This document shows positions 11 to 14,145 of a stretch of 64,000 nt of DNA, one piece after another. The stretch is from assembly GCA_028681335.1 (NCBI GenBank), contig JAQUIT010000005.1, positions 124,001 to 188,000 on the forward strand. Direction: 5' to 3'. The position numbers were made by a program, and so were the translations under genes. The notes beneath the pieces are model-generated. The model did not search any database, was not told the origin of the DNA, and worked only from the letters and a program-made list of their open reading frames with translations. Position 1 is the first letter of the stretch. Every line of letters begins with the position of its first letter. This DNA comes from Desulfuromonadaceae bacterium. GTDB taxonomy: Bacteria; Desulfobacterota; Desulfuromonadia; Geobacterales; Pseudopelobacteraceae.

Positions 11-1686
11 CGGTTCATCCCCGCTCGTGCGGGGAACATCAACGCTACATTCTGACCGATCATTTTTCCGGCGGTTCATCCCCGCTCGTGCGGGGAACAT
101 GAATCGTCAAAATCCTTTGATGGCTCCTGCCACGGTTCATCCCCGCTCGTGCGGGGAACATGTCACAAACCTGAATTTTCAAATCCCTCACCTCGGTTCA
201 TCCCCGCTCGTGCGGGGAACATTTCCCCGAAACCGCCTAGCCGCTGGCCGAGTTCGGTTCATCCCCGCTCGTGCGGGGAACATGACTCACCATCAACATG
301 GCAATCCATAGCCTCAGGTTCATCCCCGCTCGTGCGGGGAACATTTCTACCCATTCCGCCGATGCCGGTGAGGAAGCGGTTCATCCCCGCTCGTGCGGGG
401 AACATTTAATATCTCCGGCCAGCTCATCTTTATGTTCCGGTTCATCCCCGCTCGTGCGGGGAACATAGGTGTGATTGCCATGCGCAATAATGCGCAGGCG
501 GTTCATCCCCGCTCGTGCGGGGAACATCATGACATCCGGGTGCGCGGTGTACTCGAGGTCGGTTCATCCCCGCTCGTGCGGGGAACATTATTTAGCTAAT
601 AGGACAAGCCGGATATCCGGCGGTTCATCCCCGCTCGTGCGGGGAACATATGAATCGAGATTGCCAATGTTTTGAGTGAGGCGGTTCATCCCCGCTCGTG
701 CGGGGAACATCGATTTGGGGGCGGTAAACTCGTAGCGGGGGACGGTTCATCCCCGCTCGTGCGGGGAACATTGGCCCTATCCATATCCGTTTGACTACAA
801 TGCCGGTTCATCCCCGCTCGTGCGGGGAACATTTCCGCCTGATCGGCAATGTCGTTGGCTTGGTCGGTTCATCCCCGCTCGTGCGGGGAACATCGAAACG
901 AGACGAGCATGTTTTCCAGTTCGCGCGGTTCATCCCCGCTCGTGCGGGGAACATGGCCTGATGCGGAGTTTCATAGCTCCCAAGGTCGGTTCATCCCCGC
1001 TCGTGCGGGGAACATAGTTTAGGAATATTAAAATATTAGGTAGAGGACGGTTCATCCCCGCTCGTGCGGGGAACATTATACCTGGATATGGGCGATCTTA
1101 CTAAAGACCGGTTCATCCCCGCTCGTGCGGGGAACATCTCTGGTCCATTTTTGCACTCATCGGCGTCGCCGGTTCATCCCCGCTCGTGCGGGGAACATCT
1201 GACATCCAGCGGTCGGTAAGGTTTTTCTATCGGTTCATCCCCGCTCGTGCGGGGAACATCCGGTGGGATCACGGTCGGTCACCATGAACGACGGTTCATC
1301 CCCGCTCGTGCGGGGAACATGTAACAGCCGCCGATTCGGTGGACACATGGGGCGGTTCATCCCCGCTCGTGCGGGGAACATTCCACGGTTTTCCGCCTAT
1401 TGTGTAACTGATACGGTTCATCCCCGCTCGTGCGGGGAACATTCCACTCCGATGCCAATGCGGTCCGTCAGCAGCGGTTCATCCCCGCTCGTGCGGGGAA
1501 CATATCTGCCAAATCCTCTGTCGTGAAACATTAAACGGTTCATCCCCGCTCGTGCGGGGAACATTCTTTCGCGGAAAGCCGGACCGGTTTGCCGCTCGGT
1601 TCATCCCCGCTCGTGCGGGGAACATAAGGAAAAAGTGCTTGATGCCATTTGCCATTTCGGTTCATCCCCGCTCGTGCGGGGAACAT
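11..1686 (-). CRISPR. Type I-E CRISPR array, 28 repeats and 27 spacers
   Basis: Twenty-eight 29-bp repeats start every 61 bp from 11 to 1658, so all 27 spacers are exactly 32 bp. In the crRNA direction (minus strand) the repeat starts ATGTTCCCCGC and ends GCGGGGATGAACCG: a 6-bp GC stem followed by the 8-nt 5' handle ATGAACCG typical of type I-E. The repeats are identical except the one at 316-344, whose first plus-strand base is A instead of C. The leader and cas2 lie to the right, so new spacers should enter near 1686 and the oldest lie to the left. Bases 1-10 look like part of a further spacer, so the array probably continues beyond the window. Spacer targets cannot be identified without a search. 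Confidence 0.99.
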
Positions 1687-1754: not shown

Positions 1755-2966
<1,212 letters not shown>

Positions 2967-2970
<4 letters not shown>

Positions 2971-4061
2971 GGTTTGGCCTTCCGTTGTTGTTCCAGAATT
3001 GCACGGGTTTTGTCAATCTCTTCCACCAATGCTTTTTCGTCAGGTAAAGCCAGCTTGTATTCTGCCGCCAGCACCTTATTGGGGAGATTTTCCAATGCGT
3101 AGTGAGCCAGGGCATGATCCTTCTGAGCGCAGATAATCAGCCCGACCGGCGGGTTTTCTTCCGGGTTTGTCCAATGTTCCCGGGCATAGTTCAGGTACAT
3201 ATGCATCTGTCCGGAATCGGCATGGGTGAATTTGCCCAGTTTCAGATCTATCACCACCAGACAGCGTAAACGACGATGAAAGAAAAGCAGATCAACCCGA
3301 TACCAGGAATCACCGATCCGCAAGCGACGCTGTCGGCCAACAAAGGTGAAATCACCACCGAGTTCAAGCAGAAAGCTCTCCAGATGCTGGATCAAAGCCT
3401 CTTCCAGATCATTTTCCGAATACTCGTCCTTCAACCCCAGAAACTCCAACACCAGCGGGTCACGGATCTCTTCTTCAGGGGTAACGGCATCCTCCGCCAG
3501 AGGCTTTTCTCCCTTTTTCAGCATCGCAGCCTTGTTGCGGGAAAGAGCGGTGCGCTCGTAGTAGAGCGTTGAAATCTGGCGGTCGAGTTGACGAACTGAC
3601 CAGCCACCCCGTAAAGCCTCTGCCTCATAAAACTTGCGGGCTTCTTGATTTTCTACAGAAAGGAGACGGACGTAATGCGACCAAGGGAGGAGGAAGCAGT
3701 CAGCAATCTCACTGACAGTCAATTGTGCAGACACTGTCTGCACAATGTTCGGGTAGTATGTGTAAAACTGCCTCATCTGGAAAAGATTCCTGCGTCCAAA
3801 CCCTCGCCCGAGTTTTGCAGTCAAATCAGCGGCAAGAAGGTCTATCACCTGTTTACCGTAATCTGCCTTATTTTTCCCAAGTTGCTCATGCACAACGATC
3901 CGGCGTCCAATTTCCCAATAGGTGGCAGTCATGATGGTGTTTACCGCACGAGCTGACATGCTACGGGCCTGCTCCAGCAATTCGACTACGCCGGAGAGCA
4001 TGACATCATATCCAGTGGTTGCGGGTGCCTGCTTTTTTAAGCGTTTCTCTTTATCCGCCAT
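2967..4061 (-). CDS. YhcG-family (DUF1016) PD-(D/E)XK nuclease inserted in the cas operon
   Basis: The 364-residue protein has the two-part YhcG architecture: an N-terminal DUF1016 helical domain (about residues 15-165, with the typical TYWEIGRRIVVHE and GRGFGRRNLFQMRQFY segments) and a C-terminal PD-(D/E)XK nuclease domain. Likely active-site residues are Asp257 (RVDLLFF), Asp272 and Lys274 (VVIDLKLG), with a QxxxY motif at 285-289. I chose ATG 4061 because AAGGAGG stands 6 nt before it; the upstream ATG at 4094 has no such site. YhcG proteins are usually scattered or found near restriction systems and are not part of the standard I-E gene set. Here the gene lies between cas6e and cas1 and is joined to cas1 by an ATGA overlap. 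Its exact role is unknown; defence or DNA processing for adaptation is inference. Confidence 0.85.
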
Positions 4062-4094
4062 GCTTGACCTCCTTGTAACAACTCCGCACTGCAA

Positions 4095-4119: not shown

Positions 4120-4147
4120 CTGTCTGAATGCCTTTGACATCAAAATC

Positions 4148-4264
4148 AAATCCCCCTGAATCCCCTTTAGGCCCCAGAGGTTCCTTTCGTAAAGTGGGAC
4201 TTCAAACCCCATACGGACTTATTTTTAGCTCCCCCCTTAAAAAAAGGGGGGTTGGGGGGGATTT
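4148..4264. repeat. MITE-like G/C-palindromic repeat between cas6e and the yhcG-type gene
   Basis: The ends are inverted copies of each other: AAATCCCCCTGAATCCCC on the left and, reversed, AAATCCCCCCCAACCCCCC on the right. A further hairpin (CCCCCC...GGGGGG) lies inside. The right end overlaps the cas6e stop codon. The same 18-base end sequence recurs at 12329. Elements of this look are common dispersed repeats in many genomes; here it marks the junction between the effector genes and the nuclease-adaptation genes. Confidence 0.6.
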
Positions 4265-5141
4265 AACAACGGCGCACGAGCATCAAACCGCAACCGAAAC
4301 CCTTAGCGGGGCCTATGCCTTCAAACAAAGCCTTTGAAAATAACCCCGCATCCACCACCTCAACTTCACCTTCGAAGTCAACCGAACTGAATCCGGCATC
4401 TCTGCCTTTTTTGGGAAGGGCATGCCATTGATACCCTTCTGCCTGCAACTTCATGTGCCCATTAAAACCATCTCTGACCATAGTAAACCCAAGTCTTTCA
4501 CACCTCCCGACAAACCACGTTTCAAGCGCCTTGTCCATACTGGCTTTAAAAGCCAAATCCAGCAATTCAACAGGCTTCAAAATACTTGTTGGTACATCTA
4601 CATAGCGCTCATTTTCGTCTATTATTCCTCGCAATTTTTCTTCTATTTTTTGTGAATTCGGGATTTGTCGCCATGCTTCAATAATGCGTTTCTTGATTTC
4701 CAACTTTTTACCATTTGTCGATATCGACATGTCAGCGGCAATCTCGCGCAACAGGTGATATTGTGCATCCATCACCACGTCATGACGAGGAGAGTTTTTC
4801 TTTCCTTCCTCTTTACGGGCGACTGTCGGATTGGCGCGCAGCCTGAAAGCCAAGCGCTCTCCGTTGGCTATCTTGGGAGCATACTGTTTGGAATCAACAA
4901 CAAACAAGGGATGATCTGATATGGGTTGTGATTCCGAAACCGTGTAAAACACCGGCTCTCCCTTCACCCCTTTCCGAAACGGTATCTGTTCTCTGGCTAT
5001 TTCTTCCCGAAAAAGAAAGGACCGCTTCTCTTCGCCCGGAAACAGTTTCCACAACAACTGGTGAGCGCCATAGCCGTTCCCGCTTACCAGCAAATGCAGT
5101 TCCCGCACATCCGGCCTGATTCTGACTCTGGAAAAAAACAT
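4263..5141 (-). CDS. cas6e: Cas6e crRNA-processing endoribonuclease with an internal insertion
   Basis: Cas6e cuts the repeat RNA below the hairpin, leaving the 8-nt handle, and stays bound in Cascade. The start MFFSRVRIRPD fits the family, and ATG 5141 has AGGAGG 7 nt upstream; it overlaps the cas5e stop as TGATG. Tyr24 and His27 (YGAHQLLWKLFPG) match the catalytic pair, RLRANP matches the central strand, and GIGPAKGFGCGL is the C-terminal glycine-rich loop. At 292 residues it is about 80 longer than the usual 200-215. The extra stretch (about residues 125-200) lies between the RLRANP region and the second half of the fold. It contains a segment resembling a SAP motif (LLREIAADMSISTNGKK then a basic helix). 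Confidence 0.93.
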   Translation of the reverse strand: MFFSRVRIRPDVRELHLLVSGNGYGAHQLLWKLFPGEEKRSFLFREEIAREQIPFRKGVKGEPVFYTVSESQPISDHPLFVVDSKQYAPKIANGERLAFRLRANPTVARKEEGKKNSPRHDVVMDAQYHLLREIAADMSISTNGKKLEIKKRIIEAWRQIPNSQKIEEKLRGIIDENERYVDVPTSILKPVELLDLAFKASMDKALETWFVGRCERLGFTMVRDGFNGHMKLQAEGYQWHALPKKGRDAGFSSVDFEGEVEVVDAGLFSKALFEGIGPAKGFGCGLMLVRRC

Positions 5142-5956
5142 CAGCATTCCTCCTTTCCAAAGCACATGTTTTCTATGCGTTGGGTAAATTGCCATCTGGC
5201 ACGAGAAGTCGGCTGATCATGCCGTGTCAGTGATTGTTGCGAAATAAGATCGCCGGCATCACCTTCCCAGTAATAACGCACCGGTTTATTACCATAGGCA
5301 AAGACATTTTTGTCTTCCCTTGAAAATTCCACCAGCGACGGCGCGTCAGTCAATGTTCCACCTGCTGCGATTTCTTTTCGTGCTGTTTTTATCAGCCAGT
5401 TTGAGACAAAAAGGGCTCCGCAAGGATAGCTATCCAGCGCCTCTCCAAAGCCGCCCGCATCCCGGACAAGCGGATTAAGAGGCGATGCAACGGGACAAGA
5501 TTTACGGCCAAGATATAGATGAAAGCGTGGTTTCAGGAGCGCTTCCCGGAGTTCGTCCAGCGAATATGGCGCATCCTCTTCTGCCACTACCGCCACCAAT
5601 GTCAGCGCATCGCAACGGTATTCGCGGCTAGAGAGGATTGTGCCGAGCCGTTCCTTGCCCAGCACCAACTCGTCACGACGGATACGATAGACAAATTTAC
5701 CGACCGAATCCGGTGCCTGGGCGGTGTGATAATCACGGAGCGGATGACCAACATTGATTACTTTGACGGCAAAACGGTAACCGTTGGTCAGCGCTGCCTG
5801 ACGCTGTTCCTCGTCCCTGCGGATACCAAGCGCCGCCGCCATCAGACCCAACAAAGCCGATTTGCCGGGATAGAGTGCGGAATGCCGGGATTCACCCACC
5901 GCAATCTCGCCCCAACTGGCCATGGGCCCATACAGGCGGAACAGAAGATATTTCAT
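5141..5956 (-). CDS. cas5e: Cascade subunit Cas5e (CasD)
   Basis: Cas5e caps the 5' end of the crRNA in Cascade. The N-terminus MKYLLFRLYGPMASWGEIAV and the following ESRHSALYPGKSALLGLMAA are family hallmarks. The start at 5956 has a GGGGG ribosome site 5 nt upstream and lies 10 nt after the cas7e stop; an upstream in-frame ATG would overlap cas7e and lacks a site. Length is 271 residues, somewhat longer than the E. coli subunit. Confidence 0.95.
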   Translation of the reverse strand: MKYLLFRLYGPMASWGEIAVGESRHSALYPGKSALLGLMAAALGIRRDEEQRQAALTNGYRFAVKVINVGHPLRDYHTAQAPDSVGKFVYRIRRDELVLGKERLGTILSSREYRCDALTLVAVVAEEDAPYSLDELREALLKPRFHLYLGRKSCPVASPLNPLVRDAGGFGEALDSYPCGALFVSNWLIKTARKEIAAGGTLTDAPSLVEFSREDKNVFAYGNKPVRYYWEGDAGDLISQQSLTRHDQPTSRARWQFTQRIENMCFGKEEC

Positions 5957-5966
5957 GATCGCCCCC

Positions 5967-7037
5967 TTATTCAGCCACAAATTTCAAAAGTTCTGACAAC
6001 GTCCCTGTGCCTTCAAACACGTTGATCTCGCAGGAAGCATCGGCACACGGGCCATAGACGGCATTCATGTTGTGGCGCTGATTTGTCAGGGCAGCCACCG
6101 CCGCCGTGCCGAAATCAGCCCCTTCAATCCCCTGGCTGGTAACCGGTTTGAGAAACGCAACCGACAGAGAGCGCGGCTGTTGATCACCCTTTTCAGCCAG
6201 GACATAACTGGCATAAGCGCGACTTCCAAAGCTATTTTGCTTCCCTTCTGGAGCAACCTTAACCGCCGCCTCTATCAAGGCTTTGATAGACTTTTGCGCC
6301 AACTCCTCATCACCGCCAAGATTGTCAACAAGCAGCGCCCGGTTGATGCAGATATAGGAGTAAAAGAGTCCAGCAGCAAAACCGGTTTCGCCGATATGAG
6401 CGGCTCCAGCATCCGCGCTGCCGTCGTTCAGATCGTCAACGGCGGTAAAGTAATCATCTTCAATCACAACCGGATGGACGCTGATAGCGTGAGCCACCTG
6501 ACAAGCGGCTTCGACGTTATAGGCCGGAGACGATGCCAGCATGCGGCCAAACATGGCAATGTCGGCGGACTGGCTCTGTTTACGCAGCAAGTCAAGCTCG
6601 ACATCCTCCGGTGCCCTGTTTTCCGACACCAGAGTCGCAACCAAACTTTCAATTATCTGAACTTCTGCTGGACTAACATGTACAAGCTGTTCAATTTCCA
6701 GATCAACAAGCGAATCTTTCTCTTTGGCCTTCTTCAATGCCCCGAAAACTCCGGCGATCTTTTGCGCCCATTCTTTTGCCTGTTTTTCCTTTACGCCACC
6801 GGCAACAAGTTTTTCGTATGCCATGATGCCCAGAAGTTTTGTTCTTGTTCCTACATGCTCACCCAATGCTTGTTGAAACAAATCCGATGTTCTCCAGGCC
6901 CGTTTCAGACTCTGTGAAGAAACGCGCAGTCGATCAAAACCACCCATCTTGGCGGTCTTGGGTCGTCCCTGGTCGTCACGGTTAAGATTGGCGGGTGGGT
7001 ATGATGTCAGCAGGTGAATTTGTACGAAACGGCTCAT
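5967..7037 (-). CDS. cas7e: Cascade backbone subunit Cas7e (CasC/Cse4)
   Basis: Cas7e forms the helical backbone, normally six copies, that stretches the crRNA spacer and causes every sixth base to flip out. The 356-residue sequence begins MSRFVQIHLLTSYPPANLNR and has the typical GRPKTAKMGGFDRLRVSSQ and SLKRAWRTS segments. It overlaps cse2 by four bases (ATGA), so translation is coupled. Confidence 0.97.
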   Translation of the reverse strand: MSRFVQIHLLTSYPPANLNRDDQGRPKTAKMGGFDRLRVSSQSLKRAWRTSDLFQQALGEHVGTRTKLLGIMAYEKLVAGGVKEKQAKEWAQKIAGVFGALKKAKEKDSLVDLEIEQLVHVSPAEVQIIESLVATLVSENRAPEDVELDLLRKQSQSADIAMFGRMLASSPAYNVEAACQVAHAISVHPVVIEDDYFTAVDDLNDGSADAGAAHIGETGFAAGLFYSYICINRALLVDNLGGDEELAQKSIKALIEAAVKVAPEGKQNSFGSRAYASYVLAEKGDQQPRSLSVAFLKPVTSQGIEGADFGTAAVAALTNQRHNMNAVYGPCADASCEINVFEGTGTLSELLKFVAE

Positions 7038-7612
7038 AGGATAGTTCCTCCTTTGGAATCTAATTTGGATTGTTTTTTTGATAATACTCGGTAGTAATCA
7101 CTGGCCCAGCAAAAAGCGAGGCGGTTTTGCGGATTGCGATCAACGCCCATACGGTATTCGTGCATCCAATGCAGAATGTTATCGATAAGAGACAGGATAT
7201 TGACGTTGCCATCAAGCATTCGTACGGCTCGCAGCAAGCGGCGGTAAAACTCGGTAGGATCATTGCTCTTCTGCAACTGCTGAAAACGCAGTTCACTCAT
7301 ACGCGGCTTGTCACCGCCTTCCTTGGGTGTCGCCAATTGGGCGGCAAAACTCGGAGAGGTAACATTTTCCTTCACCTGCGCAACGATTGCCGCAACCAGT
7401 GCCGATGCAGGCAACTGCCCGGAGACTGACCAGTCATCGGGCAGTTCAGCTAGAAAACGCGAAAATGCGCTCGTCATCAGCACATCATCAGGACTCTCGA
7501 CACGTCGCAAGCGGGCGCGATCTCCACGATTGTTATCAAGCCACTTCCACCATTCAAGCAGTTTGTCACGAGCTGCCGAATCTTTAAGAAAGCGATACGT
7601 CGATTTTTCCAT
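7034..7612 (-). CDS. cse2: Cascade small subunit Cse2 (CasB/Cas11e)
   Basis: Cse2 dimerises along the belly of Cascade and stabilises the R-loop. The 192-residue, helix-rich protein has the family features WWKWLDNNRGDRARLRR near the N-terminus and LRFQQL...FYRRLLRAVRML in the second half. It overlaps cas8e by 29 bases and cas7e by 4. Confidence 0.93.
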   Translation of the reverse strand: MEKSTYRFLKDSAARDKLLEWWKWLDNNRGDRARLRRVESPDDVLMTSAFSRFLAELPDDWSVSGQLPASALVAAIVAQVKENVTSPSFAAQLATPKEGGDKPRMSELRFQQLQKSNDPTEFYRRLLRAVRMLDGNVNILSLIDNILHWMHEYRMGVDRNPQNRLAFCWASDYYRVLSKKQSKLDSKGGTIL

Positions 7613-9197
7613 CCGTCCCCTCCTTTTCAGGTAACGCGTTAGCTATTATTTTTTTCATCGATTTACAGCCATAAATCAATCTTCCCAGCCCGTCACGCTC
7701 GGCAATAACTCGCTTCATATCCATATCTTCATTGGACGCCTCCAGCACCCAGGCATCGAAAATGTCCAAAGACAGTGACATGAGCTTTTTTTCCCACTTT
7801 GAGTACAGCTCCGGTGGCGGCAATTCCTGCTCCCCCGGCACTTGCGACAACTTATCCAAAAGTTCGTAAAAAACCGGTTCGCTCCGTTGCCAGAAATCCT
7901 GTGAAACTGTGTTCATATCCCCCTTGGCATCCTCAGGACGCCTGAACCATGCGGCCTTGACCTGTTTGCGCAGGATACTGCTGACGTCATTGGCAACGGT
8001 TATCAGCTCATCCGCCCATTGCAACAGTTTTTTGCGCTGTTTGGGGGCGAGATTAAAGAGAGGAAAGGTGTGGTCATACCAGCAGCGGGCCTTCATATTG
8101 TCCATATCGAAGCCGAAACACCAGAGCCGGGCCGTTCGCTGGATTTTCAACTCAGGAGCCCGCTGTTCCGAATACCGCCTGACGATCTTGGCAGCAGCGT
8201 CACCGTTATCATCGTCGGCAAGCGTCAAAGCGAGCCAGTGACGGTATCCAAGGCCACCCTGCTGCCCTTTGAGCGACAAGGGAGGTTTTTCCTTTTTGGG
8301 GTCAAAACGATACGGGGTCAAAGGATGCACCCATTCACCGACATAATTGACGCCATAGTTGCGGGTTCGGTACTCCTCCACTAATTCCACGTTTTGGGCA
8401 TCGCACAGATCACAATCGCCTATAACTAACTCGCTGGGAAAATCCAGACGAATCCGGCGCGGCATCCCCCAATATGTCTGGAGAAGATGGACGTTTTCCG
8501 GTGTGGTTTCCGCACCGTTCTTTTCCGAGGTGCGGGTCGCCCCCATCCAGGGAAACACCCCTGCCACTCTGTCTTGCCGATATTCCGGCATATCCTCACT
8601 ATCAAGGACATTCAGCCAAAGCGTCTGCCAGAGCAGCATCTGCTCCGGCGGCAACACTAAAGTCGTTAGCGGGCCGCCGCCTCGCAACCCGACCCGGTGC
8701 CCCACCCCGCCCGATGGCGCATTTGTCTGGAGGGTGAAGAGCGCCATTGCAGCACAGCTCTTGCAAACGTGCCGGACCGTATCCCGTTTGACGAAATGAT
8801 CCAGGTTATCCTTGACCGTCTTTCCGCCGGGCGCTTCGATCAACAGTGACGCTACCCCCTTCTTCTCGCCATCCGGCAGGGCGTAATCCTGCATGAACGC
8901 CGGCCCGTTAGGTTTATCGAATTCAAACGCCGATGCCAACGTTTCCAGCCGGGTCCGTAACAGCACCGCATCTGGAGGTTTATTCCAATACTCCAGCCAT
9001 GCGTCCAAATCTTCCGGTGCAAAGCCGGTCTGCAACAGACCGATAAGAAACTGGAACATGGCTCCCTGAAAATCCGGCCTCGGCGCCGCCAGTTCCATTA
9101 CCGGATCTTCCTGCTCGGCAATCTGCCAGGGCGCTATTACGCCTCTGCCACTTTTTGCTCTAAAAACCGGTATCCAAGCGTCTTTAATCAAGTTCAT
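7584..9197 (-). CDS. cas8e: Cascade large subunit Cas8e (CasA/Cse1)
   Basis: Cas8e recognises the PAM and recruits Cas3. The start MNLIKDAWIPV and the segment DFQGAMFQFLIGLLQTGFAP are typical. Two CxxC pairs (Cys145/148 and Cys262/265) probably bind zinc, as in several Cse1 proteins. The glycine-rich LRGGGPLTTLV segment follows the first pair. The 537-residue length is near normal. It overlaps cas3 by 14 bases and cse2 by 29. Confidence 0.96.
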   Translation of the reverse strand: MNLIKDAWIPVFRAKSGRGVIAPWQIAEQEDPVMELAAPRPDFQGAMFQFLIGLLQTGFAPEDLDAWLEYWNKPPDAVLLRTRLETLASAFEFDKPNGPAFMQDYALPDGEKKGVASLLIEAPGGKTVKDNLDHFVKRDTVRHVCKSCAAMALFTLQTNAPSGGVGHRVGLRGGGPLTTLVLPPEQMLLWQTLWLNVLDSEDMPEYRQDRVAGVFPWMGATRTSEKNGAETTPENVHLLQTYWGMPRRIRLDFPSELVIGDCDLCDAQNVELVEEYRTRNYGVNYVGEWVHPLTPYRFDPKKEKPPLSLKGQQGGLGYRHWLALTLADDDNGDAAAKIVRRYSEQRAPELKIQRTARLWCFGFDMDNMKARCWYDHTFPLFNLAPKQRKKLLQWADELITVANDVSSILRKQVKAAWFRRPEDAKGDMNTVSQDFWQRSEPVFYELLDKLSQVPGEQELPPPELYSKWEKKLMSLSLDIFDAWVLEASNEDMDMKRVIAERDGLGRLIYGCKSMKKIIANALPEKEGTDGKIDVSLS

Positions 9198-11907
9198 CGG
9201 CCACCTCCTTTTGGATTCCCCATCCCATCAGTTTGTCGTACCAGATCGAAAGTTCCGTAGTCAGTGGAAACAAATCGGCCCATTTCAATATCTTAATTTC
9301 TTCCTTCAACTCCTCCAGCGAACTTCGCACATCCGCCGGTATTGCCTCTTTAGCCCTAAGCCAGACATTTTGCGGCACACTCACCATGCTCAAATCCCAG
9401 GCAAAATTTTCATCCACCGCATATGGTCGCCATCCTTCACCATCCGGAAAAACCAGCGCCACCCGCACAGTATCGTCACCCAGGCGGGTCGGAATTTTCG
9501 CTTCATCTTCCCAGCCTCCGGAATCCTCGGCACTCGTCCGCGAATATCCCTTTGAGAGTTTCAAGGCGTTCATTCTGGCAATGCCGAGTTTTGCATAAGC
9601 ATCAGCTATGGCCTTGTCGCTCAGTTCCTGGAGAGAAGCGGGGATTCCGTCCTGTGCCTCATCGCCATAAACACCCTCAATCAGCCGCCGTGCATCACCC
9701 GGCATACTCAGCTTGCCCGCCGTGTCAAGCAACAGTTGCGTCAACCACAACTGCCCCACGTTCTGGTAAACCTTCTGTGTACCAGGCAGCGTTGCCTTCA
9801 GCCAGTTTTCAGCCGGAATCTCGCTCGCCGGTGGGCCAAAGAGATAAAATACCGGCGCTTCCCGCCCGTCCACTGCGCCTTCATTTTTTAGTCTCTCCCC
9901 CGCTGCATTGCGAATGTGCCGATGCTCACGCCCGACGCGCTGAATAAGAAGATCAATCGGGGCAAGGTCTGAAATCATCAGGTCGAAATCCAGATCAAGG
10001 GACTGTTCCACCACCTGGGTCGCAATCAGCACTCGCCCACGCCGCATCTCAGCCGTTGATTCCTTGCCAAAGAACGTCAAGGTTTCCGATTCAATCCTTT
10101 GCCGATCAATCATGGCAAAACGACTGTGAAAGAGAGAAAGTCTGTCTTTGACGAGCCATCCCTGCCGTGCCAGCAGACGATAGGTTTTTATGGCATCGCC
10201 AACCGTATTGCGTACCCAGCAGACACAGTGCCCCTGCCCCACCGCCTGCCTGATCCGTTCCAGCACGTCGTCGGCATCGTCAAGTAGGGTCACCATCACG
10301 GTTCGCTCCACCTCTTGGCGGGTAGCTACAGCCGTTTCAAGCTGTTCGTTAAAGGGGAAATGTGTTGCCAGCGGATACTGCTCTGTTTCTTTCAATGACG
10401 GCGTTTCACTGCCAGCGCCCTTACAGAACGCTTGTAGATAGTGGGTTCGCATGGTGAACGGAAGAGTTGCAGAAAGCATAATGACGCTGCCACCTTGGGC
10501 GGCGTGATATTCAAGCAACTTTTGCAGCAGCTTGTTCATGTAAGGATCGTAGGCATGAACTTCATCGACAACCAGAACCTTCCGGGCCAGCCCCAGGCAG
10601 CGCAACGATTGGTGACGGGCAGGCAAAACCGCCAACAATGCCTGATCCAATGTGCCGACGCCGACCTCGGCCAACAGCGCTTTCTTGCGACTATCCGCCA
10701 GCCAGGCGCTGCACAATGCTTCGACTGATTCCTCATCCCGATCATACTTTTGTTGGCTTTCCGTGTTATCGGGGAGAGAAAGAGATTTTCTGAATGCTTC
10801 GGAGAGATGTCTGGCTCCGTGAGCCAGCACCAGCGAAGGCATAGCATCATCCGCGTACAGTCGCCGATACGACTTACCTAGCCGCTCATACATGGCGTTG
10901 GAGGTAGCCATGGTAGGCAGCGCCACATACAGGCCATCGGCAAGGCCGTTTGCCATCAACCGATGTGCCAGGGTCAGCGCAGCTTCGGTCTTTCCTGCTC
11001 CAGTGACATCTTCAAGGATAAATATCTGGTTACCAGGGGCTAGCGCTACGTTCTCGGCCCACTGTTGTAAGGGCGTCAGTGCGGTGATGAAATTGAACAG
11101 GTGGTGGGTGTTCAGATAGGGTGCGACGAGAGAAGGTTCAAGCTGTGCACGTTCTACTGCCTGTGCAGCAAACGGCAGGGCGTGGTTATGCCAATAATCA
11201 TCAAGGACGATTTCCTGCTGACAAAATTCATCAGGCTTGCGGCTGGAGCCGAGCCAATCAGCTAACACTACAATCCCAGCCATTACCCAGGATGCATCTT
11301 TCAGACGCTTACAGAACTCCTTATCTGCCAGAGCATCAACAATGTCCGCTGTAATGAAAATAGGGGAGACATCAATCAGATACTGCCAGGCGGCTTCTTC
11401 ATCTTGTTTGTCAAAATGTTGTGAAAGGTAAAGACCGGAGGTTTTAGGCGGGATGCCATGGTGGCCGGTTACTACCTGCATCCAGACATCAAGTGTCCAT
11501 CTAAGTTGTCTTGAGTTGGAACTCTGTGCAAGCCAGCTATTTTCAGCCTCAAGCCGGTCACGTAGGCCGCCTTCATCGTTCCAGAGGCAATAGCCGAGTG
11601 AATCGTGGCGTTCAGTATATTTTTTGCGCGTATTCGGCTTGACCAGATCAGCGGATAATCCGGGAACCAACCCTTGGAAAACCACGGCAAACTTGCCGAG
11701 GTCATGCTGATTGAGAAAAAAAACGAACCAGCGCTGCAGGACTGCCGGTTCAATTTCCAACTGGTGCGCAAGACGCTGGCAGAGCGGTTTGACAGGATCA
11801 AGCAATAACCAGCCGATCGCCGCCACATCAAGACAGTGATACGGCAACAAGTGATAGCGCTTACCATCCTTTTCAGTTTTGCCCCAATAGCAGTAATAGG
11901 TTTTCAT
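9184..11907 (-). CDS. cas3: CRISPR-associated helicase-nuclease Cas3 (type I-E)
   Basis: Cas3 is recruited by Cascade after full R-loop formation and degrades target DNA. The N-terminal HD nuclease domain shows His24-Asp27 (YHCLDVAAIG), His68-Asp69 (NQHDLGKF) and GHHGIPP at 148-154. The helicase has Walker A GAGKT at 303-307, DEVH at 448-451, the SAT motif (VIMLSATLP) and the arginine-finger motif QRVGREHRH. The 907-residue length is normal. No good ribosome site precedes the ATG at 11907 (only GAG). A small hairpin (11923-11937) separates it from the upstream 39-codon ORF, so its translation may depend on that ORF. Confidence 0.97.
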   Translation of the reverse strand: MKTYYCYWGKTEKDGKRYHLLPYHCLDVAAIGWLLLDPVKPLCQRLAHQLEIEPAVLQRWFVFFLNQHDLGKFAVVFQGLVPGLSADLVKPNTRKKYTERHDSLGYCLWNDEGGLRDRLEAENSWLAQSSNSRQLRWTLDVWMQVVTGHHGIPPKTSGLYLSQHFDKQDEEAAWQYLIDVSPIFITADIVDALADKEFCKRLKDASWVMAGIVVLADWLGSSRKPDEFCQQEIVLDDYWHNHALPFAAQAVERAQLEPSLVAPYLNTHHLFNFITALTPLQQWAENVALAPGNQIFILEDVTGAGKTEAALTLAHRLMANGLADGLYVALPTMATSNAMYERLGKSYRRLYADDAMPSLVLAHGARHLSEAFRKSLSLPDNTESQQKYDRDEESVEALCSAWLADSRKKALLAEVGVGTLDQALLAVLPARHQSLRCLGLARKVLVVDEVHAYDPYMNKLLQKLLEYHAAQGGSVIMLSATLPFTMRTHYLQAFCKGAGSETPSLKETEQYPLATHFPFNEQLETAVATRQEVERTVMVTLLDDADDVLERIRQAVGQGHCVCWVRNTVGDAIKTYRLLARQGWLVKDRLSLFHSRFAMIDRQRIESETLTFFGKESTAEMRRGRVLIATQVVEQSLDLDFDLMISDLAPIDLLIQRVGREHRHIRNAAGERLKNEGAVDGREAPVFYLFGPPASEIPAENWLKATLPGTQKVYQNVGQLWLTQLLLDTAGKLSMPGDARRLIEGVYGDEAQDGIPASLQELSDKAIADAYAKLGIARMNALKLSKGYSRTSAEDSGGWEDEAKIPTRLGDDTVRVALVFPDGEGWRPYAVDENFAWDLSMVSVPQNVWLRAKEAIPADVRSSLEELKEEIKILKWADLFPLTTELSIWYDKLMGWGIQKEVADELD

Positions 11908-11938
11908 TCATGCTCGAATTCTGCGGTCAATTACCGCC

Positions 11939-12058
11939 TCATTTTTTCTTCACGACGACTACCAATGCCAGAATTATGGCAAGAGCCCCAAGACCAGGCC
12001 CGCTTATACCATTAACAGAACTGATAATTTCACGGACTAATACAGATAGTGCTTCCAT
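11939..12058 (-). CDS. 39-residue hydrophobic peptide, first ORF of the cas transcript
   Basis: ATG 12058 follows the strong ribosome site GGAGGGG, and the ORF ends with TGA at 11939, 31 bases before cas3. The product has an amphipathic start (MEALSVLVREIISSVNG), one hydrophobic helix (about residues 23-36, GLGALAIILALVVVV) and a KKK tail. This resembles small membrane toxins of type I and CreTA systems and small regulatory membrane peptides. It matches no family I can name. Its position between the crRNA-targeted promoter and cas3 makes it either a leader peptide controlling cas3 translation or a Cascade-repressed toxin. The function is inference; the ORF and its ribosome site are seen directly. 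Confidence 0.65.
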   Translation of the reverse strand: MEALSVLVREIISSVNGISGPGLGALAIILALVVVVKKK

Positions 12059-12087
12059 AATCCCCTCCACAAACCTTGCTATGAAGA

Positions 12088-12116
12088 AAGATAAGGACGG
12101 CGAATAAAAAAGTAAA
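12088..12116 (-). promoter_or_regulatory. Predicted promoter of the small ORF-cas operon
   Basis: On the minus strand a -35 box TTTACT (12116-12111) and a -10 box TATCTT (12093-12088) are separated by exactly 17 bases; each matches the sigma-70 consensus at four of six positions. Transcription would start near 12081 and reach the GGAGGGG ribosome site at 12068-12062. The -35 box shares bases 12115-12116 with the AAG PAM of the predicted Cascade target. Confidence 0.55.
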
Positions 12117-12149
12117 GAGAAAAATGGCTTTGCTTTTACTTTGCGCTAA
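12115..12149 (+). promoter_or_regulatory. Predicted Cascade target site (AAG PAM plus seed match) at the cas promoter
   Basis: AAG at 12115-12117 is followed by AGAAAAATGGC (12118-12128), identical to the first 11 bases of the spacer-like segment at 12201. TTG at 12130-12132 matches positions 13-15. Position 12 is the only mismatch in the first 15, and bases 6, 12, 18 and so on do not pair in type I-E R-loops. From position 16 onward there is almost no match, so a stalled, non-cleaving complex is expected. Bound Cascade would cover the -35 boxes of both divergent promoters. Confidence 0.75.
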
Positions 12150-12169
12150 ATTTGAAAAAATGTTATATA
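12141..12169 (+). promoter_or_regulatory. Predicted promoter of the crRNA-like RNA
   Basis: An AT-rich segment with a good -10 region (TTATATA, 12163-12169) and a weak -35 (TTGCGC, 12141-12146) 16-17 bases upstream. Transcription would start at about 12174-12176, just at the first degenerate repeat. The -35 box lies inside the predicted Cascade footprint, so the RNA may also limit its own synthesis. Confidence 0.45.
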
Positions 12170-12173
12170 CAAA

Positions 12174-12287
12174 CACGTTCCCTTTCAAAGGGATGAACCG
12201 AGAAAAATGGCGTTGAAAAATTCATCTCGGATTTGTTCCCCGCAAACGCGGGGATGAGCCGGACAAGCAATTGTCCGGCTCTTTTTC
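12174..12287 (+). ncRNA. Solitary crRNA-like RNA (CreR/CreA type): degenerate repeat, 32-nt spacer-like segment, repeat, terminator
   Basis: The first degenerate repeat (12175-12200) keeps GTTCCC, a 5-bp hairpin (CCCTT/AAGGG) and GGGATGAACCG, which contains the intact 8-nt handle. The spacer-like segment is 12201-12232, exactly 32 nt like every array spacer. The second repeat (12233-12261) matches the array repeat at 24 of 29 positions, with three changes in the hairpin loop. Cas6e-type cuts would give a 61-nt RNA (12193-12253). A terminator follows directly. It is transcribed away from cas3. CreR and CreA RNAs of other type I systems have this repeat-spacer-repeat form and use partial matches to repress cas or toxin promoters. 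Confidence 0.85.
12257..12287 (+). terminator. Rho-independent terminator of the crRNA-like RNA
   Basis: The stem AGCCGGACAA with its exact complement TTGTCCGGCT encloses the loop GCAA and is followed by CTTTTTCT. The 5' arm begins inside the handle part of the second repeat, so repeat and terminator are fused. This shows the unit is a stand-alone gene rather than a stray array remnant. Confidence 0.85.
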
Positions 12288-12328
12288 TAATCTCCCCTTT
12301 CCCCCAATACCGAAAAAATCTCAAAGGC

Positions 12329-12372
12329 AAATCCCCCTGAATCCCCCTTTCTTAAAGGGGGACTTTTTACAC
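12329..12372. repeat. Second copy of the G/C-palindromic repeat end
   Basis: AAATCCCCCTGAATCCCC here equals the left end of the element at 4148-4264. The following CCCCCTTT and AAAGGGGG form an 8-bp hairpin. Together the two copies bracket the Cascade-cas3 part of the locus. The stretch 12373-12540 shows no gene or structure that I recognise. Confidence 0.5.
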
Positions 12373-12540
12373 CCATTATGATAGAAGCTTAAAAAACCCG
12401 ACCCTAGCACACGAGCGCGTATACACAAAGGATTCTAATAATTCTCCACCAACCTAACCGCATCGCCATGAATAATCTTTATGGTTTACATATCTACCAC
12501 AGACATACGTCAAGATACGTCGCAGCAGCTATTTTACTCA

Positions 12541-12595: not shown

Positions 12596-14083
12596 CTACT
12601 CTTTTTCGAGCGCCTTCTCAATCCGCTCACAGAGCGTCTTGAGCACCTTGATGCGGGCGTAGTTCTTGTCGTTGGCCTCGACCAGCGTCCAGGGGGCTAT
12701 TTCAGTGCTGGTACGGTCAATCATATCACAGACCGCCCGTTCGTATTCATCCCATTTATCCCGGTTGCGCCAATCCTCATCAGTAATCTTGTAGCGCTTG
12801 AAACCGATCTTTTCCCGCTCCTTGAAGCGTTTTAACTGTTCTTCCTTGGTGATGGAAAGCCAGAATTTAACAACAACGGTTTTGTTCCTGACCATCTGCT
12901 CTTCAAAATCGTTTATTTCACCGTAGGCACGCATCCAGTCCTTCTGTTCGCAGTATCCCTCGACCCGCTCCACCAGAACGCGGCCATACCAGGTGCGGTC
13001 AAAGATCGCAAAGCGGCTTTTACGGGGGATATTGCGCCAGAAACGCCACATATACGGCTGGGCACGTTCTTCATCGGTCGGTGCGGCAACCGGAATGACC
13101 CGGTACTGACGGGCATCAAGTGCCTGGATGATGCGACGTATACTGCCACCTTTGCCGGCAGCGTCGTTCCCTTCAAAAGCCACGACAACCGACAGTTTTT
13201 TGAAGTCGGCGTGACGGGTCAGGAGGTTAAGCTTGCCCTGATATTTTTCCAGTTCACTTTCGTACTCGGCTTTTTTGAGCTTCTTCGACATGTCGAGCGT
13301 CTGCAGGATCAGAAGGTTATCGATAGCCGCCATGATCGGCGGGATGGGTTCACCGTGGTGTGGAGGCTCGGGAGCATCCAGGCGGAGGCGCATGGCAGCA
13401 AGGATGGCTTTGCCGATTGTCAGGTAGCGATAGCGTGGATCTGTCCCCTCGACAATTGTCCAGGGGGATTCGGCGGTGCTGGTCGAACGGAGCATCCGTT
13501 CGGATACTTTGCGGAATTTATCATATTGTTTATAGTGATCCCAGTCGGTGTCGGTAACCCGCCAGCTGGTTTTGGAATCTTTTTCAAGAAGTTTGAGGCG
13601 TTTTTTCTGTTCATCCTTCGACAGGTGCAACCAGAATTTCAGGACGAGCGCCCCCTCATCGCAGAGCATCTTTTCAAAACGGGTGATCCGCTCCAACTGC
13701 TGATCAAGCTCGGCATTCTTGATCTTGCCGTACACGTTTTCAACCAATGGCGCTGAATACCAGGTGCCGATAAAGACGCCTACCTTGCCTCGGGGGGGAA
13801 GCGCCCGCCAGTAGCGCCACATCTGTGGGCGCTCCTGTTCTTCATCGGTCAGTTCGCGCAGGGCGTGCGTTTCAATGTGGCGCGGGTCCATCCATTCGTT
13901 GAGATGGTTAATCGTCTCGCCCTTGCCCGCACAATCGACACCGGCGATCAGAATGATTACCGGAAATTTTTTCGACTGAAAAAGGTCAAGCTGGGCATCA
14001 AGCAACCCCTCGCGCAGTCCGGGGAGTTCCTGCTTCCAGACTTTCTTGCTGATTTTGTGACCAAGTTCGGCGGATTCAAACAT
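12596..14083 (-). CDS. pap: Polyphosphate:AMP phosphotransferase (two-domain PPK2, class II)
   Basis: The protein transfers phosphate from polyphosphate to AMP, making ADP. It contains two PPK2 domains in tandem, each with a Walker A-like loop: GVDCAGKGETINHLNEW near residue 50 and GNDAAGKGGSIRRIIQALD near residue 305. Each is followed by the lid-type RYWRALPPRGK or RFWRNIPRKSR motif and an ...TWYS/TWYGR segment. The duplicated, roughly 500-residue form is the class II arrangement. ATG 14083 has GGGAGGG four bases upstream; the upstream in-frame start lacks this. The neighbours are unrelated, so it is probably monocistronic. Confidence 0.92.
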   Translation of the reverse strand: MFESAELGHKISKKVWKQELPGLREGLLDAQLDLFQSKKFPVIILIAGVDCAGKGETINHLNEWMDPRHIETHALRELTDEEQERPQMWRYWRALPPRGKVGVFIGTWYSAPLVENVYGKIKNAELDQQLERITRFEKMLCDEGALVLKFWLHLSKDEQKKRLKLLEKDSKTSWRVTDTDWDHYKQYDKFRKVSERMLRSTSTAESPWTIVEGTDPRYRYLTIGKAILAAMRLRLDAPEPPHHGEPIPPIMAAIDNLLILQTLDMSKKLKKAEYESELEKYQGKLNLLTRHADFKKLSVVVAFEGNDAAGKGGSIRRIIQALDARQYRVIPVAAPTDEERAQPYMWRFWRNIPRKSRFAIFDRTWYGRVLVERVEGYCEQKDWMRAYGEINDFEEQMVRNKTVVVKFWLSITKEEQLKRFKEREKIGFKRYKITDEDWRNRDKWDEYERAVCDMIDRTSTEIAPWTLVEANDKNYARIKVLKTLCERIEKALEKE

Positions 14084-14145
14084 GATACCCTCCCGGATGT
14101 ACAGCCTGGACAATCTATATCTGCAAACCATAAACGACCGTTGAT

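Follow-up and report, generated by a model that had tools for sequence, protein, structure and literature searches.

A probable Cre-type guide gene facing a type I-E cas operon that begins with a predicted peptide toxin in a Desulfuromonadaceae bacterium

The 64,000-nucleotide stretch of DNA analysed here (the window) contains a mini-CRISPR unit, on the strand opposite the type I-E cas genes, that almost certainly encodes a regulatory RNA guiding Cascade. The guide very probably represses an operon comprised of a short membrane-type peptide gene and the cas genes behind it, and the arrangement is likely a type I-E CreTA in which the toxin is the first cistron of the cas operon that it guards. 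The site at 12118-12149 matched by the guide and the 39-aa ORF behind it, both absent from the original prediction for this DNA, are what give the guide gene its meaning.

Results

The guide gene and the cas locus

The guide gene and the cas locus have the following features; the genes from cas6e to cse1 are Cascade genes with overlapping ends.

12172-12286, plus strand: mini-CRISPR unit of degenerate repeat, 32-nt spacer, second repeat and terminator
12172-12200, plus strand: psiR1, the degenerate first repeat, AACACGTTCCCTTTCAAAGGGATGAACCG
12193-12200, plus strand: intact 8-nt handle of psiR1, ATGAACCG
12201-12232, plus strand: psiS, spacer-like guide segment of exactly 32 nt
12233-12261, plus strand: psiR2, the second repeat, TTGTTCCCCGCAAACGCGGGGATGAGCCG
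12256-12286, plus strand: intrinsic terminator, an 11-bp stem (12256-12281) followed by TTTTT (12282-12286)
9184-11907, minus strand: cas3 (type I-E), beginning 31 nt past the stop of the peptide ORF
7584-9197, minus strand: cse1
7034-7612, minus strand: cse2
5967-7037, minus strand: cas7
5141-5980, minus strand: cas5
4263-5195, minus strand: cas6e
2047-2970, minus strand: cas1
1755-2114, minus strand: cas2
11-1686, minus strand (sense strand from repeat orientation): CRISPR array of 28 repeats with a period of 61 (29+32)

The hairpin of psiR1 is shortened (CCCTTTCAAAGGG) and by itself folds weakly (z -1.1). The second repeat shares 24 of its 29 bases with the array repeat ATGTTCCCCGCACGAGCGGGGATGAACCG and has a single base changed in its handle, and the terminator stem, with a fold z-score of -7.6, begins within the last 8 nt (the handle) of psiR2. 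These readings bear out the original prediction, which had described a degenerate repeat keeping the whole 8-nt handle, a 32-nt spacer-like segment, a second repeat of this identity and a terminator starting inside it, all on the strand opposite cas3 and 10 kb from the array, the distance being approximately 10.5 kb. A search of 11900-12400 with Rfam returned no family at the gathering score.

Three further features of the window lie near these elements. A gene for a YhcG/DUF1016 PDDEXK nuclease, a PDC-S02 candidate according to PADLOC, is located between cas6e and cas1 in the cas run (2967-4094, minus strand). A CCCCCTGAATCCCC-type repeat is present twice (90%), one copy directly behind the guide-gene terminator (12321-12349) and the other between cas6e and the nuclease gene (4140-4168). 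Beside the guide unit, a 511-aa ORF (12596-14131, minus strand) contains an internal duplication approximately 771 nt apart.

Target, PAM and candidate promoters

The region between the guide gene and cas3 contains the site matched by psiS, candidate promoters for both strands and the peptide ORF.

12141-12169, plus strand: candidate promoter of the guide-RNA gene, TTGCGC, 17 nt, TATATA, extended -10; weak consensus only
12118-12149, plus strand: target of psiS, between the guide gene and the cas operon, on the same strand as the spacer
12115-12117, plus strand: AAG PAM immediately 5' of the target
12088-12116, minus strand: candidate promoter of the peptide-cas operon, TTTACT (12111-12116), 17 nt, TATCTT (12088-12093); weak consensus
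12062-12068, minus strand: Shine-Dalgarno sequence GGAGGGG of the peptide ORF
11939-12058, minus strand: 39-aa membrane-type peptide ORF, predicted toxin, MEALSVLVREIISSVNGISGPGLGALAIILALVVVVKKK, between the target and cas3

The guide segment matches the target at positions 1-11, mismatches at position 12 and matches again at 13-15, where pairing ends, the overall identity being 16/32. The AAG in front is a standard type I-E PAM. Together with the first ten target bases it occurs once in the 4.0-Mb genome, at the target site itself. The best AAG-flanked score among 2000 dinucleotide shuffles was 9, compared to 15 observed, and none of the shuffles equalled the observed value. The window presents two marks of a Cre guide: degenerate repeats with an intact handle around a spacer-length segment, and a PAM-flanked seed match nearby at a promoter, here a predicted one. 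Genes for Cas6e and Cascade are present in the same locus.

The -35 element of the candidate operon promoter overlaps the PAM. A stricter promoter scan leaves this promoter out and returns a different cas-strand candidate on the upstream side of the target, no more than chance would give (one hit; shuffle mean 1.0). The place and spacing of the window TTTACT-17-TATCTT are as in another genome with the same arrangement (G130, below), where the cas strand reads TTGACA-17-TATCAT and the -35 element, at -7 to -2 relative to the beginning of the target, likewise overlaps the PAM; the cas-strand -35 lies 1 nt off the PAM in G064 and 11 nt off in G124. Whichever candidate promoter is used in the window, target-bound Cascade would prevent transcription of the peptide and cas genes, acting as a roadblock if the promoter is the one upstream of the target. 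The candidate guide-gene -35 lies inside the target in the window, G064 and G124, a placement that makes feedback on the guide possible.

Recurrence of a four-part module

A module of mini-CRISPR unit, target, peptide of approximately 40 aa and cas gene was found in five type I-E loci: the window, G064 (L009), G124 (L024), G130 (L170) and G508 (L193, L204). The peptide is hydrophobic and is the first Shine-Dalgarno-preceded ORF after the target in all five; it precedes cas3 in four loci and cse1 in G130. The original prediction had named conservation of the 32-nt spacing and of the handle in relatives as a test, and in the four other loci the spacing is 32-33 nt with 7 or 8 of the 8 handle bases kept. 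None of 2000 shuffles reached the observed AAG-flanked match in each of the window, G064, G124 and G130.

In the class to which the window belongs, 44 of 277 genomes were found to carry cse1. The 41 genomes examined were represented by 39 regions, the window and G064 (G019, G220 and G261 were left out), several of the regions being incomplete at contig ends or shortened. Unit and target are present in four (the window, G064, G124 and G130), and the peptide is present in the same four. The rule used to recognize the peptide (28-60 aa, Shine-Dalgarno sequence, hydrophobic rear, two basic residues near the end and a long ORF directly behind), written after the four module genomes had been seen, found none in the other 37. 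Applied at that stage to all loci, it gave five distinct peptides, these four and a poor one in L085 from outside the class. A looser look at 75 regions before cas3 revealed three known peptides, an 86-aa ORF in G060 (L004) and four distant or unlikely candidates. The G060 ORF has a C-terminal membrane helix and was not counted because no guide unit was found; it starts 270 nt before cas3 and directly precedes it in this close relative.

The cas3 sequences of the window/G124 pair, G064 and G130 are 31-45% identical to one another, while the nearest cas3 relatives of the window (79%; G041, G060 and G066) showed neither the unit nor such a peptide, the G041 contig stopping approximately 280 nt before cas3. 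Since divergent cas3 genes have the module and 79% identical ones do not, the module was probably lost or moved more than once.

The fifth locus was reached through its peptide. A profile of G130-type peptides alone matched 10 of 395 phylum genomes at E <= 0.05; nine were partial matches (E 4e-4 to 0.05) and were not counted, and the single strong full-length match was in G508 (E 3.5e-16). In G508 the peptide ORF comes immediately ahead of cas3 in a type I-E locus where cas3, cas8e, cas6e and cas1e were confirmed, and a guide unit with a 33-nt spacer and a matching target were seen only after the peptide search. The G508 target is preceded by AAA, and its any-PAM score was reached by 1 of 2000 shuffles, which makes it weaker than the others.

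Guide units and targets across type I-E loci

A scan of 103 loci, nearly all around cas3 genes, sought handles whose next bases match something in the nearest 300 nt, with no condition on the PAM. The top PAM was AAG, flanking 18 of 142 matches overall and 15 of the 44 matches with a hairpin before the handle, 4 of these 15 coming from copies of the window. When the handle rule was relaxed for the 41 class regions, AAG was not the top PAM, accounting for 4 of 35 hairpin matches (one inside cse1); CCA accounted for 6, all from one tandem repeat in L161.

In the five module loci, mismatches in the first 12 positions occur at positions 6 and 12 only. The scan tolerated exactly these two positions, so the fair test is a comparison of position 6 with its neighbours in an overlap-free set of 115 loci (1.12 Mb) with the hairpin required. 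Ignoring position 6 gave AAG-flanked matches in 13 loci (13 of 40 matches), whereas ignoring no position or position 3, 4, 5 or 7 gave them in 6, 7, 6, 6 and 6 loci (of 21, 38, 36, 33 and 35 matches, respectively). In a target bound by Cascade every sixth base is flipped out, leaving positions 6 and 12 unread. The excess is therefore the mark of sites that Cascade reads, and the comparison serves as a test for real Cascade targets that needs sequence only.

Each of the 13 spacers scored 9-18 on its own region, above its score on any of the other twelve, for which the maximum was 9 and the mean 2.1 (156 pairs). The value of 9 comes from L009 and L060 against each other. The spacers of these distant systems (L009 at 3779, L060 at 8483) both start TGTTCCAGG, by chance or old kinship.

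Several AAG matches were set aside. Two that lie within genes, L061 in cas3 and L155 in cse1, were taken for chance; those in L148 and L169 and one at position 7009 of L170 have no hairpin. Unit-like matches without a good target nearby were found in L064, L071 and L098. The two Curvibacter loci L065 and L066 have the same guide unit (at 7864) with an identical spacer, and the L066 target mismatches at positions 6 and 9, the pair providing a natural test of tolerated mismatch. In a second class of units the spacer is approximately 20-21 nt long instead of 32 (L068 at 7800, L073 at 7797, L082 at 3547 and L084 at 7705); being approximately 12 nt shorter, these would lack two six-base Cascade segments.

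Eleven loci have a second layout in which the unit lies between cas3 and cse1 (L033, L060, L062, L065, L068, L070, L072, L073, L082, L084 and L100). The AAG matches of L033 and L070 fail the hairpin rule and are outside the 13 loci above. The cse1 gene was confirmed by profile in ten of the eleven and in L072 over the rear three quarters of the gene only, and the distance from the site to the cse1 start is 55 nt in L060, 68 nt in L070 and 63 nt in L100. No Shine-Dalgarno-preceded membrane-type ORF was found between target and cse1 in any of the eleven. A unit in this place with no peptide is the look that would be expected of CreR, a guide that autorepresses cas genes, and the unit alone is consequently no proof of a toxin. 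In L060 (7774-8360) and L062 (7767-8353) an ORF pair that resembles VapB-VapC lies between cas3 and cse1 beside the unit.

The 39-aa peptide and its relatives

The predicted structure of the window peptide has helices at 2-16 and 21-38 (mean pLDDT 80.7, pTM 0.39), the second of which is hydrophobic with KKK at its end. No accepted family was found with Pfam or PADLOC. The best Pfam likeness, below threshold (13.8 bits; cut-off 20), was to the LPXTG anchor motif, which likewise consists of a hydrophobic stretch and a basic tail.

Queried alone against 141 genomes of the order, the window peptide returned no relative except one match at E 0.099, and the 40-aa peptide of L024 as a single query found one protein. 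Single-peptide queries being poor, a profile was needed, and one was built from the peptides of the window, G064 and G124 and the first protein found (P0001). It returned 14 proteins of 38-46 aa. Three were query members (P0001 and those of G064 and the window); the 11 new proteins comprise 7 near that of the window (77-90% identical), 2 near that of G064 and 2 near that of G124. The motif NGISGPGLGALA is invariant in 8 of 8 close members of the window type. Another protein search gave six proteins, one being that of G130 itself and three having E 0.1 to 0.2.

The three strong matches in a profile search of the class were the query members themselves (the window, G064 and G124) and are thus not independent. 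Two weak peptide matches in the class (E 0.008 and 0.009), one with internal stops, and partial matches in twelve class genomes (E 0.003 to 0.05) were not counted. The window-type profile searched against the 395 phylum genomes found its own genome only. A search of plasmids and phages returned no match to one member (P0010), and no peptide match was found among viral contigs.

The peptides of G130 and G508 are alike (AT-PMAVAVLALLVALSV). Profiles of the two groups (window/G064/G124 and G130/G508) did not match each other at E <= 0.05, leaving common descent unsupported; their likeness is in length, build and place, with 23-33% identity.

Discussion

Nature of the guide and of the peptide

The original prediction of a CreA or CreR guide for a type I-E Cascade is strongly supported by the PAM-flanked target and by the recurrence of such units with targets of their own. 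It had left the choice between a cas-regulating and an antitoxin RNA, and the peptide following the target in all five module loci favours an antitoxin that also regulates cas. That the peptide is the toxin is probable, a prediction from the layout and the character of the peptide. With the predicted toxin first in the cas operon, the same guide would also be a CreR-type autoregulator of cas.

The alternative that survives best, though we consider it rather unlikely, is that the guide is a CreR and nothing else, autorepressing the cas operon, with the 39-aa peptide serving harmlessly as an accessory or leader protein of the operon in the membrane. The target is placed towards the cas operon, where a block would shut off cas3 and Cascade, the eleven other type I-E loci have their target before cse1 with no such peptide, and CreRs of type I-E are in print according to the available part of a review (PMC13131331). 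Against this, all five module loci have the peptide as the first Shine-Dalgarno-preceded ORF behind the target, whichever cas gene comes next, the peptide rule found none in the 37 other class genomes, and a hydrophobic helix of approximately 40 aa with a strong Shine-Dalgarno sequence is toxin-like.

It is very improbable that the transcript rather than the peptide is toxic, for example by sequestering a rare tRNA, as described for characterized archaeal CreTs in the available text of PMC8501985. The strong Shine-Dalgarno sequence of the window ORF would fit an RNA of this kind, but the amino-acid sequence is conserved, NGISGPGLGALA being kept throughout the close members. A rare-codon CreT was rejected: the tandem rare codons that mark the mini-ORF of a classical RNA CreT were not found, the ORF having no AGA/AGG and no tandem AUA codons as judged from the codons themselves. 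A functionless remnant of a decayed array with a chance likeness to a nearby site, suggested by the degenerate repeats and the lack of the unit in the nearest cas3 relatives, is barely credible against the shuffles, the matrix of own and other spacers, the position-6 control and the recurrence of the unit with different but matching spacers and targets.

Proposed mechanism

On the reading as a type I-E CreTA, the guide RNA would start near 12174 and end at the terminator. Cas6e would cut after both hairpins, yielding a predicted 61-nt guide (12193-12253) with a handle of 8, a spacer of 32 and a 3' hairpin of 21 nt, and Cascade loaded with it would bind 12118-12149 via the AAG PAM and the seed. 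Since pairing ends near position 15, binding would stop RNA polymerase but would not bring in Cas3. As long as Cascade is active, the peptide and the cas operon, served by one predicted promoter, would be kept low. Loss of Cascade, a shortage of guide or an anti-CRISPR block would open the promoter, and the cas genes would be refilled; if Cascade did not recover, the peptide would accumulate and the cell would be harmed.

Comparison with known systems

In creA genes, psiR1 is the more diverged repeat with its handle kept and psiR2 is nearer the array repeat, according to the available part of PMC9458426, and the window unit fits this pattern. Archaeal and Acinetobacter CreTA modules likewise have two degenerate repeats of this kind and a target near the toxin promoter, but as far as the available texts describe them (PMC8501985, PMC10097628, PMC9458426) they belong to types I-B and I-F and their characterized toxins are RNAs.

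The closest precedent is that of Basta and others in Citrobacter rodentium, for which the available part of PMC12055562 describes a type I-E system whose cas3-casA gap holds a 96-bp ORF for a toxin that is translated and is repressed by Cascade, with creA on the opposite strand and a PAM-flanked target; frameshifts in this CreT abolish toxicity. The kind is thus already known in type I-E. Both loci have a strong ribosome-binding site and a PAM-flanked partial target at the promoter, a predicted one in the window. As described there, the C. rodentium PAM is ATG, the target lies over the UP element and the authors found no homologues; by these descriptions the window is set apart by its 39-aa ORF before cas3, its AAG PAM and the relatives of its peptide elsewhere.

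In CrePA the toxin CreP is a protein under crRNA-like repression, as the window peptide is predicted to be, but according to the available text of PMC12737573 CreP targets FtsZ and typically carries a KilA-N domain; the window peptide is approximately 40 aa, of membrane type and without an accepted Pfam family, and no KilA-N domain was found in it. Type I toxin-antitoxin systems also figure in that text (PMC12737573). Their toxins are short and hydrophobic like the window peptide, which has a basic tail; their antitoxin is an antisense RNA in contrast to the Cascade proposed to act at the promoter here, and no accepted Pfam match links the peptides.

According to the available part of the review (PMC13131331), CreRs autorepress in types I-B, I-E and V-A, and CreR is described as generally uncoupled from a toxin gene in that of PMC12737573. 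The CreR guide partly matches a cas promoter, as the window guide is predicted to do, and the window layout would repress the cas operon; unlike CreR, the window has a toxin-like peptide as predicted first cistron.

The original work on CreR, the cas-regulating RNAs, is reportedly that of Liu in 2023. Searches of the open-licence literature found neither these peptides nor a Cre unit of Geobacter-type bacteria reported. The original prediction did not know such an RNA of a deltaproteobacterial type I-E system to have been described; CreR and a translated type I-E toxin are in print, and what looks new is these peptides and the promoter shared by toxin and cas genes.

Implications

The evidence is evenly poised on a wider proposal, that such peptides of approximately 40 aa are a new kind of membrane-peptide toxin encoded by the leading cistron of type I-E cas operons, with one Cascade-guided switch that both tunes cas expression and serves as an anti-CRISPR tripwire, and with the overlap of target and guide promoter balancing the supply of guide. 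The arrangement would join the CreR and CreTA ideas in one promoter. The peptides can be tested by simple expression, and a peptide search can reveal hidden guide genes. If the CreTA reading is true, there are Geobacter-type and related bacteria whose type I-E operons free a membrane peptide whenever Cascade is lost or blocked, which would bear on the persistence of CRISPR-Cas and on how cells sense anti-CRISPRs.
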